Positions 1,658-34,948 of a stretch of DNA of 64,000 nt are shown here, one piece after another. The translations under genes and the position numbers were made by a program. Where the stretch lies: contig JAJXVB010000001.1 in the NCBI GenBank assembly GCA_021782365.1, positions 1 through 64,000 of the forward strand, in the 5' to 3' direction. The DNA comes from Pseudomonadota bacterium (GTDB taxonomy: Bacteria > Pseudomonadota > Gammaproteobacteria > Burkholderiales > Gallionellaceae). Each line of letters begins with the position of its first letter. The first letter of the stretch is position 1. Below the pieces are notes generated by a model. That model made no database searches. It was not told where the DNA came from and saw only the letters and a list, made by a program, of their open reading frames with translations.

Positions 1658-2296
1658 TCAATGGGAAAACAGATTGTGGGAAACCGCATAGTGAACCAAA
1701 TCGGCAGTGCTGTTGAGATTCATCTTCACCATCAGATTCAGTTTGTGCGTGCTCACGGTCTTGTTGCTGATGCAAAGGCGCTCCGCAATTTCATTGACCC
1801 TTCTGCCTTTCACCAGATATCCGAATATCTCGAATTCGCGCTCGGACAAAAGGCAGTGTGGTGCCCTCTGTTCTGGCAGCAGCGCATCGAATGCAAGCTG
1901 TTCAGCAAGCGCAGAATTGATATATTTCCCCCCCGCAGCAACCCTGCGTATCGCATCCTGCAAAACCTCAGGATCGCTGTCTTTCGAGACAAAACCCGAG
2001 GCCCCCGCCTTGATTGCGCGAGAGGCAACCTGCGTCTCGTTGTGCATGCTGAAAACAAGTATGTGCACTTCTGGAAAATCGCACTTGATCTGGTTGATCA
2101 GGTCCATACCATTCACGCCCGGCATGGTGAGATCCAGAAGCACCAGATCCACATCGCTGTGCTCCTTCAGCTTGGACAGCACATCCGGACCATTGACGGC
2201 TTCCCCGACCACCCTGATATCCAATGTCAGCGCAAGGATTTTATTGATGCCTTCTCGCACGATGGCATGATCGTCGGCAATCAAGATTTTAATCAT
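1658..2296 (-). CDS. NarL/FixJ-family response regulator
   Basis: Receiver (ILIADDHAIVREG, DLVLLDLTMPGVNG, SKDSDPEVL) and LuxR-type HTH (LSEREFEIFGYLVKGRRVNEIAERLCISNKTVSTHKLNLMVKM). Confidence 0.95.
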   Translation of the reverse strand: MIKILIADDHAIVREGINKILALTLDIRVVGEAVNGPDVLSKLKEHSDVDLVLLDLTMPGVNGMDLINQIKCDFPEVHILVFSMHNETQVASRAIKAGASGFVSKDSDPEVLQDAIRRVAAGGKYINSALAEQLAFDALLPEQRAPHCLLSEREFEIFGYLVKGRRVNEIAERLCISNKTVSTHKLNLMVKMNLNSTADLVHYAVSHNLFSH

Positions 2297-3932
2297 CGAT
2301 TCTTCTCCCTGGATTGGTCTGGTAAGGCGGCATGTAAACCATCACGGTCGTGCCATGGCCCTTTTCGCTGGTTAATTCCACCTTGCCTTGCACCGCAAGT
2401 GCGCGCTCACGCATCCCCATCAGCCCGAAAGATTTCTTTGCCGGCATTTCGGATGGATCGAATCCCACGCCATTGTCGTGGATTGAAACGCAGACGCATT
2501 CACCGCATTGCCTGAACGAAATTTCAACTTCAGTTGCTTGCGCGTGTCTTGCGATATTGGTCAAAGACTCCTGCACTATGCGGAAGAGAGTCAGCGTGTG
2601 TGCATCATCTAGCTGCTCCAGTATATCCATTTCATGCGAAATCTTGACACTGCACTTGATCCCGGTGCGCCCTGAAAAATCATTTCCCAGCCAGCTGACT
2701 GCAGCCATGATCCCCATATCCAGTATGGGAGGGCGCAGGTTCGTCGCCACATTGCGCACCCCGCTTATCGCTTTGTCCACCAGCATCAGCATGTCTTTTA
2801 TCATGCCCTTCATCTCAGGCTCATGCTCGGAAAACTGGATGCGCAGCAAAGAGATGTCCATGCGCAGAGCTGTCAGGGTTTGTCCAAGCTCATCGTGCAG
2901 CTCGCGCGCAATGCGTTTCATCTCAGCCTCGCGGGCTGCGATGCTCTGGGTAGACATTTGACGCAACAAGCGCTGGTATTCCTTGAGCTCTGATTCGGTA
3001 TTTTTGCGTTCGGTGATGTCCCGAACTACGCATTTCAGGTAGGTTTTATCCCCGATAACGAGCTTCACTCCCCTCGCCTCTACGCGTATTACCTGGCCAT
3101 TCGGCTTTTTGTATTTGAATTCCGAAGTTGCAGTCATGCCCATATGCATGATCTGAAAAAATATCTCCCTGGTCTGCACCATCTTCTCAGGAGGACGGAG
3201 TTCCCAAATATGCATATTCCTCAGCTCTTCATTGCGTAATCCGCTCAATCCCAAGATTTCAGGGTTGTATTCGACGATCAAGCCATTCTCATCGGCAAGC
3301 ATGATTCCATCCAGCGTGCCGTCAAATATGGCGCGATATTTTTCTTCCGACTCGCGAAGCTTCCTGTCTGCCCTTTCGCGTTTGGTCACGTCGATCAGCA
3401 CGACGCGCAGCGAGATTTCGCCATGGCCATTCTCTATGCGTATGCACTCAAGGTATGCGGGAAAATCTGCGCCATCGATGCGGCGGATATTCAGATGACA
3501 CCCTTGCTTCTGATCGCTATTCAGTGCTTCCGCAAACACATTTTCCCAGCGCCCTGTATCCGATTGCACGATATATTGGCTGAAGCGCTGGTTGAGCAGC
3601 AGTTTCCGCTCGATGCCAAATAGCTCCGCCGCCGCATAGTTCATCTCATAGATCAATCCGTATGTATTCAGCGTGAAGAGCGCGATGGGTGAAAAATCGA
3701 AAAGGTCAAGATAACGGTCATGGGATTCTTTGAGCAGAGTCTGAGTCTGGCGCAGCTTTTCTTTCTGCGATTCAAGTTCAAACTGAAAGGTGTGCGACAT
3801 TGATTCGGCAAAGGGTTCGGACTCGCTCTCCCTTTTAATCTCAGCCATCGCGTACACCTGCTCTGAATGATCGCTCACACGTTCTTCCCTCGATGAATAG
3901 TGGATTCTCAGTTCGTGAAAGCGCTCCGTCAT
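2289..3932 (-). CDS. PAS-containing sensor histidine kinase, NarX/HisKA_3 type
   Basis: Three PAS-like segments, then AREAEMKRIARELHDELGQTLTALRMDISLL (HisKA_3) and HATPase (DNGVGFDPSEMPAKKSFGLMGMRERA). Start MTERFHELR chosen; the longer ORF start at 4052 would include an operator-like palindrome. Confidence 0.9.
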   Translation of the reverse strand: MTERFHELRIHYSSREERVSDHSEQVYAMAEIKRESESEPFAESMSHTFQFELESQKEKLRQTQTLLKESHDRYLDLFDFSPIALFTLNTYGLIYEMNYAAAELFGIERKLLLNQRFSQYIVQSDTGRWENVFAEALNSDQKQGCHLNIRRIDGADFPAYLECIRIENGHGEISLRVVLIDVTKRERADRKLRESEEKYRAIFDGTLDGIMLADENGLIVEYNPEILGLSGLRNEELRNMHIWELRPPEKMVQTREIFFQIMHMGMTATSEFKYKKPNGQVIRVEARGVKLVIGDKTYLKCVVRDITERKNTESELKEYQRLLRQMSTQSIAAREAEMKRIARELHDELGQTLTALRMDISLLRIQFSEHEPEMKGMIKDMLMLVDKAISGVRNVATNLRPPILDMGIMAAVSWLGNDFSGRTGIKCSVKISHEMDILEQLDDAHTLTLFRIVQESLTNIARHAQATEVEISFRQCGECVCVSIHDNGVGFDPSEMPAKKSFGLMGMRERALAVQGKVELTSEKGHGTTVMVYMPPYQTNPGRRIDD

Positions 3933-3979
3933 TCGCTTTCGCGGGGCTTCAATATTTGCATTATTCACTATAACTTGAT

Positions 3980-3995
3980 ATAGGAATAATCCTAT
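3980..3995. promoter_or_regulatory. Palindromic operator-like site (TAGGAAT/AATCCTA inverted heptads)
   Basis: ATAGGA-ATAA-TCCTAT, 48 bp upstream of the preferred histidine kinase start at 3932. Confidence 0.45.
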
Positions 3996-4078
3996 TGAAA
4001 GATGAAATTTCCTTAACTCGCAGAAATTTCCAGCCGATAGGCTAAAATTCAAGATTCATTGTTTAAGGAAGGCCTTCA

Positions 4079-18750: not shown

Positions 18751-19917
18751 ATGAAAATCGCAATCGCCGGTACCGGCTATGTCGGCCTCTCCAATGCCAT
18801 TCTGCTCTCGCAACACAATGAAGTCGTTGCAGTCGACATCGTCCCCGAAAAGGTCGAGATGCTTAACCGCAAGCAGTCTCCCATAGAAGACGTGGAAATC
18901 GAGGACTTTCTCAAGCACAAAAAACTCGATTTCCGCGCAACGCTTGACAAGCGAGTAGCCTATGAGGGCGCCGATTACGTGATCATCGCAACACCGACCG
19001 ACTACGACCCAGAGACCAATTACTTCAATACGAGCTCGATCGAATCGGTGATAAAGGATGTGTTGAGCATCAACCCCAAGGCCGTGATGATCATCAAATC
19101 CACCATACCCGTCGGCTATACGATCAAGGCCCGCGCGAAATTCAACTGCGACAATCTCATCTTCTCGCCCGAATTCCTGCGCGAGGGTCGGGCGCTATAC
19201 GACAACCTGCATCCATCGCGCATTGTCGTGGGTGAGCGCTCTGCGCGCGCAGAAGTGTTTGCAAACCTTCTGAAGCAGGGTGCGATCAAGCAGGACATCG
19301 CCGTTTTGTATACCGATTCGACCGAGGCCGAGGCGATCAAGCTCTTTGCCAACACCTACCTTGCGATGCGGGTCGCCTACTTCAACGAGCTGGACACCTA
19401 TGCAGCCACACACGGCCTGGATACAAGGCAGATCATACAGGGCGTCTGCCTGGATCCTCGCATCGGCGACCATTACAACAACCCGTCCTTTGGCTACGGC
19501 GGCTACTGTCTTCCCAAGGACACCAAACAGCTGCTCGCGAATTACCAGGATGTGCCGCAGAACCTGGTCCATGCGATCGTCGAATCGAACACGACGCGCA
19601 AGGACTTCATCGCCTTCGATATCCTGAAGCGCAATCCCAGAGTCGTCGGCATCCACCGCCTCGTTATGAAGAGCGGCTCGGACAATTTTCGCTCAAGCAG
19701 CATCCAGGGCATCATGAAACGCATCAAGGCCAAGGGAATCGAGGTCATCGTGTATGAGCCCGCGCTCAAGGAGCCGGAGTTTTATCGCTCCAGAGTGGTG
19801 AACGATCTTGTACAATTCAAGAAGGAGGCCGACGTCATCGTCACCAACCGCATAACAGAGGACCTGAAAGACGTCACCGATAAGATATACAGCCGCGATC
19901 TTTTCGGCAAGGACTGA
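18751..19917 (+). CDS. ugd: UDP-glucose 6-dehydrogenase family nucleotide-sugar dehydrogenase
   Basis: 388 aa; [76 protein letters not shown]. Confidence 0.93.
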
Positions 19918-19946
19918 GCTAGATTCGAAAAATTTTAGGGAACCCT

Positions 19947-21014
19947 ATGATCTTAACGACGGGCAGCGCAGGTTTCATCGGTTCGAATTTCGTTCTTGAC
20001 TGGTTTACTCATAGCGATGAGGCGGTCGTCAATCTCGACAAACTGACCTATGCGGGAAACCTTGAGAATCTCGCATCGCTAAAGGACAATCCCAGTCACA
20101 TCTTCGTGCATGGCGACATCGGGGATAAGGCGCTGGTTTCAAGCCTGCTCTCCAAGCACCGTCCGAGGGCGATCGTGAACTTTGCGGCTGAATCGCATGT
20201 GGACAGGTCCATACATGGCCCTGAAGATTTCATAAATACCAATGTCGTCGGCACCTTCCATCTTCTTGAGGCCGTCAGAATATACTGGTCCGCTCTTCCG
20301 GAGCCTGAAAAGGCAAGCTTCCGCTTTCTGCATGTCTCGACCGATGAAGTGTATGGCTCGCTCTCCAAGGATGACCCGGCGTTCACGGAAGCCCACCGCT
20401 ATGAGCCTAACAGCCCTTATTCCGCGAGCAAGGCCGCGAGCGACCATCTGGTGCGCGCCTATCACCACACCTACGGGCTTCCGGTTTTGACGACCAACTG
20501 CTCGAACAATTACGGTCCATATCATTTTCCCGAAAAACTGATCCCTCTGATGATCGTCAATGCGCTTGCCGGCAAGAGCCTCCCGGTCTACGGCGACGGC
20601 CAGCAGATCAGGGACTGGCTGTATGTGAAGGATCACTGCAGCGCGATACGCCGCGTGCTGGAAAAGGGAAAGCCAGGCGAGGTATACAACATCGGCGGCT
20701 GGAACGAGAAGGCCAATATCGATATCGTTCATACGGTATGCAGCTTGCTCGACGAGCTGCAACCCAGAAGCGACGGGAAACCCTATCGCGAACAGGTTGC
20801 TTTTGTTGTTGACCGCCCCGGCCACGACAGGCGCTATGCGATCGACGCGCACAAGATAGAGAGGGAGCTCGGCTGGAAACCTGCCGAAACCTTCGAGACC
20901 GGCATACGCAAGACGGTGCAGTGGTATCTGGACAACCAGGCATGGGTGAACAATGTGTTGTCCGGCAACTACAGGCAGTGGGTAGAGAAGAATTACGCGG
21001 GGCGCGCCCGATGA
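19947..21014 (+). CDS. rfbB: dTDP-glucose 4,6-dehydratase
   Basis: [67 protein letters not shown]. Confidence 0.97.
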
Positions 21015-21907
21015 AAATCCTGCTGTTCGGGAAGAACGGCCAGGTAGGCTGGGAGCTGCAGCGCAGCCTCTCCTTTCTTGGAGAACTGGTCGCGCTGGAT
21101 TCCCATTCCGAAAACCTGTGCGGAGACTTCACCGATCTTGTGGGAATTTCCGAAACGGTCCGCCAAGTGGCGCCCGACATCATCGTCAATGCAGCGGCTC
21201 ATACCGCAGTGGACCGCGCCGAGAGCGAACCCGATCTTGCAAGGACCATCAATGCGGCGGCCCCTGCTGTGCTGGCAGAGGAAGCAAGGAGGCTTAATGC
21301 CTGGCTCGTTCATTACTCGACAGACTATGTCTTCGACGGAAGCGGAAGCCAGCCCTGGGTCGAATCCGACCCGACAGGCCCGCTGAATGTCTATGGGAAA
21401 ACCAAGCTGGAAGGTGAGCAAAGCATTGTTCAGTCGGGATGCCGTCACCTCATCTTCCGTACAAGCTGGGTGTATGCCGCGCGTGGCGGCAATTTCGCAA
21501 AGACCATGCTGCGCCTGGCTCAGGAGCGGGAAACCCTAAAAATAATCGACGACCAGACAGGCTCTCCGACCGGGGCCGATCTGCTCGCCGATGTCACGGC
21601 TCATGCGCTACGCATGGCAAGACACAATTCCGACATCTCGGGGCTTTATCATCTTGTTGCAGGTGGCGAAGTCACATGGCACGGCTATGCGAATTTCGTG
21701 ATCGATTTCGCAAGGCAAAAAGGTATTACCCTTAAAGCCCAAACGATAGAGGCCGTGCCGACCAGCGCCTTCCCGACCCCGGCCAGGCGCCCGAGCAATT
21801 CGCGAATGAATACAAAAAAACTGCAAGCCGCTTTCGATTTGCATCTACCGGATTGGCAAACCGGTGTCGAGCGCATGCTGACCGAAGTGCTGGAGAAACA
21901 ATCATGA
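21011..21907 (+). CDS. rfbD: dTDP-4-dehydrorhamnose reductase
   Basis: [66 protein letters not shown]; start overlaps the rfbB end. Confidence 0.97.
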
Positions 21908-22785
21908 TCAAACGCAAGGGCATCATCCTCGCAGGCGGTTCGGGCACGAGGCTTCACCCCGTGACACTCGCCGTATCCAAGCAACTCCTTCCGGTTTATG
22001 ACAAGCCGATGATCTACTATCCCCTGTCCACGCTGATGCTCGCAGGAATAAGGGATATCCTGATCATCTCGACCCCACAGGACACCCCGCGCTTCGAGCG
22101 GCTTCTTGGGGACGGGCACGCATGGGGACTGAACCTGCAATACGCCGTCCAGCCTTCACCCGACGGCCTGGCGCAGGCTTTCATCATAGGGCGGGAATTC
22201 ATAGGCTCCGATCCATCGGCCTTGGTGCTAGGAGACAACATCTTCTACGGACACGATTTTCAGAGCCAGCTCCAGGATGCGGCCAGGCGCACTGAAGGCG
22301 CCTCGGTTTTCGCCTACCATGTGCATGATCCCGAGCGCTATGGCGTTGTGGAATTCGACAGGACAGGCCGCGCCGTATCGCTCGAAGAAAAGCCGCTCAA
22401 GCCGAAATCGAACTTTGCCGTCACCGGGCTTTATTTTTACGACAACGACGTGATCGATATCGCGGCCAACCTCAAGCCATCCCAGCGAGGCGAACTTGAA
22501 ATCACGGACGTCAACAGGACTTATCTCGAACGAGGCAGATTGTCGGTCGAGACCATGGGGCGGGGCTTTGCGTGGCTAGACACCGGCACTCACGAGTCGC
22601 TGCTCGAAGCAAGCCAGTTCATACAGATCATCGAGCAACGCCAGGGATTGAAGATCGCCTGCCCGGAAGAGATCGCTTTCAAGAACGGGTTCATCGACGC
22701 AGAAGAGCTGGAGAAATTGGCCGCTCCTTTGATCAAGAGCGGCTACGGCGCCTATCTGATGCAGGTATTGAGGGAAAATGCATGA
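21904..22785 (+). CDS. rfbA: Glucose-1-phosphate thymidylyltransferase
   Basis: [58 protein letters not shown]. Confidence 0.98.
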
Positions 22786-23327
22786 AAGCGATAGCAGCGG
22801 AGATTCCTGGCCTGTTGATCATCGAGCCCAGGGTGTTCGGCGATGAGCGCGGTTTCTTCTATGAGAGCTTCAACAGGAAGAAGTTTGCGGAACTGACAGG
22901 GCGAGATGTCGACTTCGTCCAGGACAACCACTCCAGGTCGGTGAAGAACGTGCTGCGAGGCTTGCACTACCAGATTCAGCATCCTCAAGGAAAGCTGGTG
23001 CGGGTTGTGCAAGGGACGGTGCTCGATGTCGCAGTGGACATACGCAGGAGCTCCCCCACCTTTGGCAGGCATGTCGCAGTCGAACTCTCCTCCGACAACA
23101 AGCGCATGTTCTGGATACCGGAAGGATTTGCGCACGGCTTCGTCGTGCTTTCCGAATCCGCCGAGTTTCTCTACAAAACGACAGACTACTGGATGCCGGA
23201 ATTCGAACGCTCGATACGCTGGGACGATCCTGCCCTGAAAATAGACTGGCGTTTGCAATCCGCCCCGGCTTTGTCTGCGAAGGATCTGCAGGGAAAACTT
23301 CTCGCAGAAGCCGACTGCTTTGCATGA
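22782..23327 (+). CDS. rfbC: dTDP-4-dehydrorhamnose 3,5-epimerase
   Basis: [69 protein letters not shown]. Confidence 0.97.
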
Positions 23328-23342
23328 TTTGAAAGGAAAGAA

Positions 23343-24443
23343 ATGGCAAAAGGGATGATACTGGCTGCAGGCCAGGGAACGCGCATCAGGCCCCTGACCA
23401 AGAATCTGCCCAAGCCCATGATCCCCATTCTGGGCAAGCCCGTGATGGCATATCTGATCGAGCACATGGCAAGACACGGGGTCGTCGACATCATGATCAA
23501 CGTGGCTTTCAACCACGCCCAGATCGAGAGCTATTTCGGCGATGGCAGCAGCTGGGGCGTGAACATAGGCTATTCATTCGAAGGATTGCGAGAGCACGGA
23601 GAGATCGTCCCGAAGCCGATGGGCTCTGCGGGAGGCATGAAGAAAATCCAGGATTTTGGCGGCTTCTTCGATGAAACCACTTTAGTGGTATGCGGCGATG
23701 CGATCATCGATCTCGACATCGAGTCAGCCCTTTCGGAGCACAAGAGCAAGGGGGCATTGGCCAGCGTGGTCACGCTCGATGTGCCGCTTGAGCAGACCAA
23801 GAATTATGGCGTGGTCGTGACCGACAAGAATGGACAGGTCGAATCCTTCCAGGAAAAACCCCAGCCCGAGGAAGCCAAGTCCACGCAGGCCAGCACCGGC
23901 ATCTACATCTTCGAGCCCGATGTGTTGAACCTTGTGCCATCCGGAAAAGTGTTCGACATCGGCAACGACCTTTTTCCGTTGCTCGTGAAAGAGAATCTGC
24001 CCTTCTTTGCGCAAAACCGCGATTTCAACTGGATAGACATCGGACGCCTGACCGATTACTGGGAAGTGTCGCAGCGCGTGCTGCGCGGCGAGGTCGATCT
24101 GATGGGCATGCCAGGCAGGGAAATTCAGCCCGGCGTATGGGCAGGTCTCAACACCTCCATCGAGCCTGGCGTCAAGATCACAGGCCCGGTCTATATCGGC
24201 TCCAACGTGAAGATAGAACAGGGCGCGATCATCACAGGCCCCGCATGGATAGGTCATGGCAGCCACATACGCTCCAAAGCCCGGCTCGAGCGCTGCATCC
24301 TTTCCGAATACGTGAGGATCAGCGCCAACCAGGAGCTGAGCGAGATGATCATCTCCAGCCAGTATTGCGTCAAACGCAACGGAGACGTGCACTACCTAGG
24401 AGAGGAAAACGTGCCGCTGCACTGGGGAGATGCGCGCGGCTGA
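23343..24443 (+). CDS. NDP-sugar nucleotidyltransferase with C-terminal left-handed beta-helix (mannose-1-P guanylyltransferase/glucose-1-P type)
   Basis: [41 protein letters not shown]; hexapeptide-like [34 protein letters not shown]. Confidence 0.9.
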
Positions 24444-29011: not shown

Positions 29012-30706
29012 ATGAAAAACTGGTGGCGCTCGTTGGACCTGGCGACTAAGCTGAACATACCCATTCAGTTGATGCTGGCCATCGTCCTGTCCCTGGCCCA
29101 TATCTGGGTGATCCAGAACTTCAAGGCTGAAGTGCTGGATGGCGCAAAAAGGCGCGCCATCGTCTCTGCCGACGGCATCATCAACGGCATGAACATGCTG
29201 ATGGTGACCGGCATGATCTCGAATCCCGAAAACCGCAAGCTGCTCATAAGAAAGATGAGCGAATCCGAACGCATGAAGGAAGTCCGCATCATACGCGCAA
29301 AGCAGGTTCAGGATCAGTTCGGCAAAGGCCTGCCAGAGGAACAGGCCATCGACGAACTCGACAATCTCGCGATCGGCACGAAGCAGACACAGTTCAAGCT
29401 GGACCGTCGATCCTCATCTTTGCGCACGGTCGTGCCTTTCGTCGTGAGCACCAACTTTCGCGGCACAAATTGCCTTTCCTGCCATCACGTAAAACCGGGT
29501 TCGGTGAATGGTGCGGCCAGCATCACGATCGACATGACACAGGACTTCAGCGCGATCAGGAAAGCCAGGGTAGAGCTCTGGATAGGGCAATTGCTTCTGC
29601 AGCTCATGATGTATTTTTCGACCCGGCGCCTGATACGCCGTTTGATACGCCCGCTCACCAGCCTGAAGTCGTCCATGGAAGTGATGAAAAAGACGGGCAG
29701 CACCGCTCAGTTCGTGCCTGTCAAGGAAAACAGGAACCAGGATGAAGTCGGCGTACTCACAGGCACCTTCAATCGCATGTCTGAAGTCTTGTTCAATTCC
29801 GAGCAATCGATGAGGCTTGCGAAATCCATCTATGAATCGAATGCGGACGCGATCATCGTGACGGATGAGAACAACCTCATCACGGATGTCAATCCTGCAT
29901 TCACCCGGCTGACCGGCTACCCGCCTGAAGAGGTGATAGGAAGGAATCCGAGGATCATGAAATCCGGCCTGCACGATGATAAGTTCTACCAGCAGATGTG
30001 GCAAAAGATCCAGGATGAGGATCACTGGCAGGGAGAACTCTGGGACAAGCGCCGAGACGGTTCGCTTTATGCCAAGTTTGCCAACATCATCGCCCTGCGC
30101 AACGACGACGGCAGCGTGTACCGGTATGTGGCGCAATTTTCTGACATCACCGAGAAGAAGCAGAAGGACGAGCTGATATACTGGCAGGCCAACTATGATC
30201 CGCTGACCAACCTGCCCAACAGGCGTTTGTTTCAGGACAGGCTTGCGATGGCCATCAAGATCGCGGATCGCAAAAAGCTGCCCCTTGCGCTGTTCTACAT
30301 CGACCTCGATCACTTCAAGGAAATCAACGACAAGCTTGGCCATGCCAACGGCGATGCGCTGCTGATGGAGGCCGGACAGCGCATATCAGGCTGCGTGCGC
30401 GAGACGGATACGGTTGCGCGCCTGGGAGGGGATGAATTCGCAATCATCCTGCCCGAGCTGGAAGACTCTGAGCAGACCCAGCGCATCGCGAGTGAAATCG
30501 TGAACAGGCTAAAAAGTCCGTTCTACTTCATCAACGACGAAACCGGATATCACGTTTCTGCGAGCGTAGGAATCGCATTCTATCCTCTTGACGCCCAGGA
30601 GATAACGAGCCTGATCAATTCTGCGGATAAGGCCATGTATCGCGCAAAAGAAGCCGGACGGAACACCTACAAATATTATTCTGGATCGATGGACTTCCTG
30701 TCCTGA
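29012..30706 (+). CDS. Membrane diguanylate cyclase with periplasmic CXXCH (heme c-type) sensor domain, HAMP-like segment, PAS and GGDEF
   Basis: N-terminal TM; VSTNFRGTNCLSCHHVKPGSVNGAASITIDM (CLSCH); second TM; PAS (ANADAIIVTDENNLITDVNPAFTRLTGYPPEEVIGRNPRI); RETDTVARLGGDEFAIIL (I-site RxxD + GGDEF). Confidence 0.93.
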   Translation: MKNWWRSLDLATKLNIPIQLMLAIVLSLAHIWVIQNFKAEVLDGAKRRAIVSADGIINGMNMLMVTGMISNPENRKLLIRKMSESERMKEVRIIRAKQVQDQFGKGLPEEQAIDELDNLAIGTKQTQFKLDRRSSSLRTVVPFVVSTNFRGTNCLSCHHVKPGSVNGAASITIDMTQDFSAIRKARVELWIGQLLLQLMMYFSTRRLIRRLIRPLTSLKSSMEVMKKTGSTAQFVPVKENRNQDEVGVLTGTFNRMSEVLFNSEQSMRLAKSIYESNADAIIVTDENNLITDVNPAFTRLTGYPPEEVIGRNPRIMKSGLHDDKFYQQMWQKIQDEDHWQGELWDKRRDGSLYAKFANIIALRNDDGSVYRYVAQFSDITEKKQKDELIYWQANYDPLTNLPNRRLFQDRLAMAIKIADRKKLPLALFYIDLDHFKEINDKLGHANGDALLMEAGQRISGCVRETDTVARLGGDEFAIILPELEDSEQTQRIASEIVNRLKSPFYFINDETGYHVSASVGIAFYPLDAQEITSLINSADKAMYRAKEAGRNTYKYYSGSMDFLS

Positions 30707-33775: not shown

Positions 33776-34944
33776 ATGCTCGTCACCCCCCTGCTTAAGC
33801 TCGCCGCCGAGAGGCAGGCATCAGACCTGTTCTTTTCGGTAGGCGCGCCTGTCAACATCAAGATAGACGGTGTTGCGAGCCCGGTCAATTCTCAGGTCCT
33901 GACCCCTGAAGTGATCAAGCGCATCGCCTACGAGATGATGAACTCCAAGCAGATGCTGCAATTCGAGAACAGCATGGAGATCAACTTCTCCTATCGGGCC
34001 GATCAGCTTGGCAGTTTCCGGGTCAACATCTTCCGGCAGCGCGGCGACATCGCGATGGTCATCCGCTATGTCAAGGGCGCGATCGATGATATCGCCGAGC
34101 TCCACCTGCCCAGTGTCTTGAAGTCCCTGATCATGGAAAAGCGCGGGCTGGTTCTGGTCGTCGGGGCTACCGGATCCGGCAAATCGACAACGCTTGCCGC
34201 GATGATACAGCACCGCAATTTGACCCAGACCGGCCACATCCTGACGGTAGAGGATCCCATCGAATACATCTTCAGGCATGAAAAATCCATCGTGAACCAG
34301 CGTGAGCTCGGCACCGACACGCAAAACTACGAAAATGCGCTTTCCTTCGGCATGCGCGAGGCGCCGGACGTGCTGATGATAGGCGAAGTGAGAGACAGAG
34401 ACACGCTGAAACACGCGCTGATCTTTGCGCAGACGGGGCATCTTTGCCTTACCACACTACACGCGAACAACAGCTATCATGCATTGAACCGCATCGTGAA
34501 CTTCTTCCCCTACGATTCGCGCCAAAGCGTGCTTTCTGATCTTTCCATGTGCCTGAGAGCCGTGATCTCCCAACGCCTCGTGCGCACAGTCCAGGGGAAG
34601 CTCGTACCCGCCGTGGAGATACTGATGAACACCACGCTGATCGCCGACCTGATCAAGAACGACGAGATCGAAAAGATACACGAGGCGATGGACAAGAGCG
34701 TTTCTCCCGGTTCACAGACTTTCGAGCAGGCGCTGTACAGGCTTTTCAAGTCCGGCAAGATCAGCAAGGAAGAAGCGATGCGCAATGCGGATTCGGCAAG
34801 CAATCTTTCCGCGCTGATCGACTTTTCCGAGCGCACCAACACCATGAGTGTGCCTGCCTTCGTTCCTCAGCCTGAGGCGAAGGCAACGACGAAATCCAGC
34901 TTCAACGAAATCAAGATCGATCTCGGAACAATGGATGAGTCCGA

Positions 34945-34948
<4 letters not shown>
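33776..34948 (+). CDS. PilT/PilU-family type IV pilus ATPase (PilU-like)
   Basis: VVGATGSGKSTTLAAMIQHRN (Walker A), HILTVEDPIEYIFRHEKSIVNQRELGTDTQNYENAL, APDVLMIGEVRDRDTLKHALIFAQTGHLCLTTLHANN. Confidence 0.94.

Follow-up and report, generated by a model that had tools for sequence, protein, structure and literature searches.

A predicted diguanylate cyclase with a probable periplasmic heme-c sensor related to Geobacter GSU0935 in an iron-oxidising-type Gallionellaceae bacterium

The window (the whole stretch of 64,000 nucleotides that was analysed) contains an open reading frame of 564 amino acids at positions 29012-30706 on the forward strand. From its sequence, we predict that it encodes a membrane-bound, c-di-GMP-making enzyme of a Gallionellaceae bacterium of the iron-oxidising type. 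Its features are as follows, with all residue numbers referring to the encoded protein.

29012..30706, + strand: whole gene, encoding TM1, heme-c Cache sensor, TM2, HAMP, PAS and GGDEF in this order (open reading frame, Pfam)
29057..29113, + strand: TM1, residues 16-34 (Kyte-Doolittle mean 2.19; family mean 2.03)
29120..29566, + strand: predicted periplasmic Cache-type heme-c sensor, residues ~37-185 (AlphaFold, Foldseek, profile match to the PF21563 family)
29201..29203, + strand: Met64, predicted distal heme ligand (invariance; alignment with Met60 of GSU0582)
29471..29485, + strand: CLSCH, residues 154-158, heme-c attachment motif, with His158 as predicted proximal ligand (conservation, position in the model)
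29567..29623, + strand: TM2, residues ~186-204, weak here (hydropathy; helix 176-221 unbroken in the model)
29627..29788, + strand: HAMP, residues 206-259 (PF00672, 25.5 bits; cut-off 25)
29825..30160, + strand: cytoplasmic PAS, residues 272-383 (PF13426, E 2.5e-16; PF00989, E 1.2e-15)
30188..30664, + strand: GGDEF diguanylate cyclase domain, residues 393-551 (PF00990, E 8.2e-51)
30398..30409, + strand: RETD inhibitory I-site, residues 463-466 (5 residues upstream of GGDEF)
30425..30439, + strand: GGDEF active-site motif, residues 472-476 (intact)

A preliminary description of this gene had placed a CXXCH motif between two transmembrane segments, followed by a HAMP-like region, a PAS domain and an intact GGDEF with an RxxD site. 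This layout holds: CLSCH is flanked by TM1 and the weaker TM2, the three cytoplasmic domains are recognized by Pfam, and the RxxD site is RETD. The DEF of the GGDEF motif is nearly invariant across the family alignment. Pfam gave zero matches in the protein N-terminal of residue 206. The mean Kyte-Doolittle hydropathy of TM2 is 0.93 in the window protein and 0.59 in its nearest relative (locus L001), against a family mean of 1.8-1.9, and the topology of the window protein therefore depends partly on that of the family. Directly after TM2 lies the arginine-rich stretch RRLIRRLIRP.

Syntenic orthologues, flanked by purT(-fba) and eamA-dapC-dapD, are found at loci L001, L002, L018 and L022, with partial synteny at L006, L009, L010 and L011. 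The window gene overlaps a convergent EamA-type transporter gene by 31 bases (30676-30706), and the nearest relatives, L001 and L002, have a similar overlap of the two genes. Scans for promoters and terminators returned nothing useful. A gene for a PilU/PilT-type retraction ATPase is close by (33776-34948) and is kept in the same neighbourhood. Kilobases upstream, in a separate operon, is a run of sugar-nucleotide genes (18751-24443: UDP-glucose dehydrogenase, rmlB, rmlD, rmlA, an rmlC-like gene and a nucleotidyltransferase), and polysaccharide is a possible target of c-di-GMP. Elsewhere in the window, a PAS-PAS histidine kinase adjoins a LuxR-type response regulator (1658-4052, reverse strand).

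In exported domains, CXXCH is the motif to which heme c is covalently attached. CLSCH is the sole CXXCH in the protein, and the window's open frames of at least 100 amino acids, about 49,000 residues in all, contain three. When the periplasmic loop was shuffled, a CXXCH arose in 0.02% of trials. The motif is invariant in all 88 sequences of the family (87 homologues and the window's own sensor; 36-91% identity to the window protein) and, together with Met64, in all 19 distant sequences from other families that were found by profile. Given this invariance in both sets, the motif is not due to chance. Also invariant in the 88 sequences are N61, M64, R75, K81, R92, R95, Q102, G104, G106, E110, D114, P142, G151, T152, N166 and G167.

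An AlphaFold model built from the 88-row alignment (mean pLDDT 90) has a long N-terminal helix, a four-stranded sheet and a long C-terminal helix, with the CXXCH motif in a short helix between beta3 and beta4. Foldseek matched it in the PDB to a modelled WalK complex (E 1e-7), to GSU0935 (3b42, E 4e-5) and to more WalK Cache domains. The TM-scores to 3b42 are low (0.3-0.5), which would be explained by the fact that 3b42 is a swapped dimer. Searches of the PDB with the window domain, both as a single sequence and as a profile, gave chance matches only, and a search with a distant relative reached GSU0582 at E 0.017.

Profile-profile comparison settled the family. With hhalign, the window family matched the PF21563 family at a probability of 98.5% over 197 columns, and of 97.8% when the CXXCH segment was masked. 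The periplasmic part alone scored 97.3%, or 95.5% when masked, and 40 column-shuffled controls scored at most 3.5%. The score against PF11845 was 91.6%, but only 11.4% with CXXCH masked. (The partners were samples of 20 PF21563 and 29 PF11845 sequences.) PF11845 matched neither the window protein at E up to 1 nor anything in its genome and, given also the masked similarity of 11%, was rejected as the family. At the same E limit, PF21563 likewise lacks a match in the window protein; it has none in the genome either, and it matches 14 of the 88 family sequences at E up to 1, the best at 3e-4. Because the window sensor falls under the curated cut-off, it is outside the Pfam entry as curated, and our claim is one of homology to the branch. 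Judged by the masked and unmasked profile comparisons, the window domain is a member of the GSU0935/Mcp40H-20 (PF21563) branch despite its sub-cut-off score.

This homology suggests an identity for the distal heme ligand. In an alignment of a PF21563 sequence with GSU0582 (3b47), the Met that is conserved in the "GLxxxM" helix falls on residue 26 of the chain. This residue is Met60, because the CXXCH histidine is residue 109 in the chain and His143 in the published numbering. In GSU0582 and GSU0935, Met60 is the distal ligand of the reduced heme; oxidation of these Geobacter sensors releases it, CO or NO can take its place, and both proteins bind NO whether reduced or oxidised (PMC8396549). 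In the profile alignment, Met64 of the window protein shares a column with this Met60, and it is probably the distal ligand of the window sensor. Met62 is present in 85 of the 88 Gallionellaceae-set sequences and is replaced in the 19 distant ones; since its conservation in Gallionellaceae comes close to that of Met64, the assignment is not certain.

GSU0935 and GSU0582 are chemoreceptors of Geobacter sulfurreducens (PDB 3B42 and 3B47; Pfam name Mcp40H-20_sensor). They share with the window protein the fold, full-length profile homology, the place of the CXXCH motif, the aligned Met60/Met64 and the layout TM-sensor-TM-HAMP. However, their output is an MCP domain, whereas that of the window protein is GGDEF. 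The window family also has a longer loop, in which QFGPGLPEE is conserved ahead of beta2 and RGTNCL ahead of the CXXCH motif. The sCache_heme or Tll0287-like domains (PF11845, DUF3365) resemble the window domain in that they are Cache folds whose CXXCH lies in an insertion between beta3 and beta4 (PMC12889525), but the distal ligand of Tll0287 is a Cys, while a Met is predicted here. The authors of that work, a 2026 preprint, count GSU0582 and GSU0935 as sCache_heme, and in their wide sense the window domain would belong there too. They also report fusions of heme-c Cache domains to HAMP, PAS, GGDEF and EAL (PMC12889525). DcrA of Desulfovibrio vulgaris, likened here by its description only, similarly joins a heme-c sensor to a signalling output, although this output is an MCP domain and not GGDEF; it is proposed there to sense O2 or redox state (PMC3460858).

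The genome has the means to attach heme c, namely a Ccm system I cluster in the order ccmA-B-C-(D)-E-F-G-H-I (L163), in which the names other than CcmC and CcmF were read from ORF sequences and gene order. ResB is absent from the genome. The periplasmic heme-c sensor proposed in the preliminary description is thus strongly supported by the invariant CXXCH, the Cache fold, the homology to solved heme-c sensors and the Ccm operon, and the domain, as predicted from its sequence, almost certainly binds heme c outside the inner membrane.

The same sensor occurs five times in the genome: in the window cyclase and at loci L159, L160, L161 and L162. In L159 (364-3270; G000:C30:92863-95769) it is followed by HAMP, PAS repeats, GGDEF and EAL, and the protein is probably a c-di-GMP enzyme that shares this input and either opposes the window cyclase or is bifunctional. 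L162 is a TM-sensor-HAMP chemoreceptor. L160 (2352-4430, reverse strand) and L161 (600-2753, forward strand) are chemoreceptors in which an N-terminal cytoplasmic PAS domain is joined to the periplasmic heme-c sensor. This PAS domain presumably resembles that of the aerotaxis receptor Aer, which would give each of these receptors two possible redox inputs. Two PilZ proteins in the genome are candidate c-di-GMP receptors.

A search of domain architectures, as had been suggested at the outset, found the sensor fused to GGDEF, GGDEF-EAL and MCP outputs. Among 74 full-length family proteins (the window's and 73 homologues), 68 have GGDEF, 22 EAL and 6 MCP, and the distant relatives examined are all chemoreceptors (6/6). 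In one family member there is also a hemerythrin domain, which might bind gas as a second input. Of 100 genomes sampled from the window's bacterial family, 69 carry the sensor, in up to 12 copies per genome, as do 41 of 274 genomes of the class; the named matches are Gallionella, Sideroxydans and Gallionellaceae MAGs. PF11845 proteins form a separate set, which occurs in 69 of the 100 family genomes and not in the window's genome. In one genus (g9), 18 of the 19 genomes sampled have no copy of the sensor. Most g9 genomes encode an NxrB-like protein of 392-395 amino acids that scores 240-253 bits with TIGR03478, in every case under the curated cut-off, and judging by this protein the genus may be the nitrite oxidiser Nitrotoga.

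The gene cluster itself is probably known. Table 1 of a 2023 Gallionellaceae pangenome lists cluster 400, "Diguanylate cyclase with PAS/PAC sensor", whose proteins each have a single CXXCH and which occurs in 36 of 87 genomes of iron oxidisers, and two chemoreceptor clusters are tabulated as well (PMC10734462). Cluster 400 agrees with the window protein in bacterial family, annotation and motif count, and very probably includes it. In that table, the cluster is an entry without analysis of domain, fold, ligand or relation to the Geobacter sensors.

Taken together, we consider it likely that the window protein is a diguanylate cyclase with a periplasmic heme-c signalling sensor of the GSU0935/Mcp40H-20 branch. 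Heme c would be attached at Cys154 and Cys157 by the Ccm system I, with the iron held by His158 on the proximal side and, on the distal side, by Met64 of the long N-terminal helix. Oxidation of the iron, or binding of NO (or CO), would release or displace Met64. TM2, HAMP and the PAS linker would relay the resulting helix shift, which would alter dimerisation of GGDEF and thereby change c-di-GMP output, with product inhibition at RETD. That a redox change or a gas ligand controls c-di-GMP, as the preliminary description proposed, can be inferred with good reason by analogy to the Geobacter relatives. The analysis shows the architecture, the conservation of the motif, the predicted fold, the homology and the Ccm genes; we infer heme occupancy, the ligand switch, the identity of the signal and the direction of the effect. 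The cytoplasmic PAS domain could be the dominant input. For the heme-c sensors of chemoreceptors, redox state, O2 and NO are competing proposals for the natural signal. As the natural signal of the window sensor, we put redox slightly ahead of NO.

A selective NO sensor, in which ferrous heme binds NO tightly without holding O2, is a narrower form of this explanation and a rival to redox as the signal; NO from denitrification, or from nitrite and Fe(II), would then set c-di-GMP. We regard it as a serious but somewhat doubtful candidate. A heme-c Cache protein of P. azotoformans with TM helices and HAMP binds NO, releases it slowly (koff 6e-4 per s) and does not form a stable complex with O2 (PMC12889525), GSU0582 and GSU0935 bind NO whether oxidised or reduced (PMC8396549), and nir and nor genes are listed in many Gallionellaceae (PMC10734462). 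However, the P. azotoformans protein comes from the PF11845 set and is only distant kin of the window family, and the predicted Met at the distal site argues against a selective NO sensor in the window protein.

The heme might instead serve stability and not signalling, or the domain might be an electron carrier, with the cytoplasmic PAS as the real input. Stand-alone heme-c Cache proteins do resemble redox carriers (PMC12889525), and PAS is a common input of such cyclases. Nevertheless, this is improbable, given that the sensor is fixedly fused to HAMP and GGDEF, GGDEF-EAL or MCP, and that L162 and the distant MCPs examined keep the CXXCH domain while PAS was undetected in them. A heme-free metal site or redox-active cysteine pair is very improbable: CXXCH by itself is no proof of heme, but a His follows the second Cys in 107 of 107 sequences, the domain is homologous to crystallised heme-c domains and the genome has a Ccm operon. 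Hardly any credence is left for a cytoplasmic domain with TM2 not a true TM helix, which would fit the low TM2 hydropathy here and in L001 but not the family mean, the arginine-rich stretch, the adjoining HAMP or the invariant CXXCH.

Heme-c Cache domains on c-di-GMP enzymes are already known as a kind; the additions made here to the periplasmic heme-c sensor reading are the placement in the GSU0935 branch, the prediction of the Met ligand and the recognition of a blind spot in Pfam. Both PF11845 and PF21563 miss the branch, so that censuses which rely on these models give too low a count of heme-c signalling in iron oxidisers. For most c-di-GMP enzymes, we know of no natural signal. In this case there are predictions for the cofactor, for the proximal and the probable distal ligand and for the output, so that the signal is open to spectra and a cyclase assay. 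Because cyclases and chemoreceptors of one genome share the sensor, it can also be tested directly whether a single cue drives the two.

More tentatively, and with rather less than even confidence, we propose that a heme-c Cache branch that is invisible to Pfam and has an invariant, predicted distal Met has multiplied in the iron-oxidising Gallionellaceae, where it would feed both c-di-GMP enzymes and chemoreceptors. At the boundary between Fe(II) and O2, swimming and life on surfaces would then both be set by a single periplasmic reading of redox state or NO. If the sensor works as proposed, the behaviour of these cells is probably switched by the redox state outside them or by nitric oxide.
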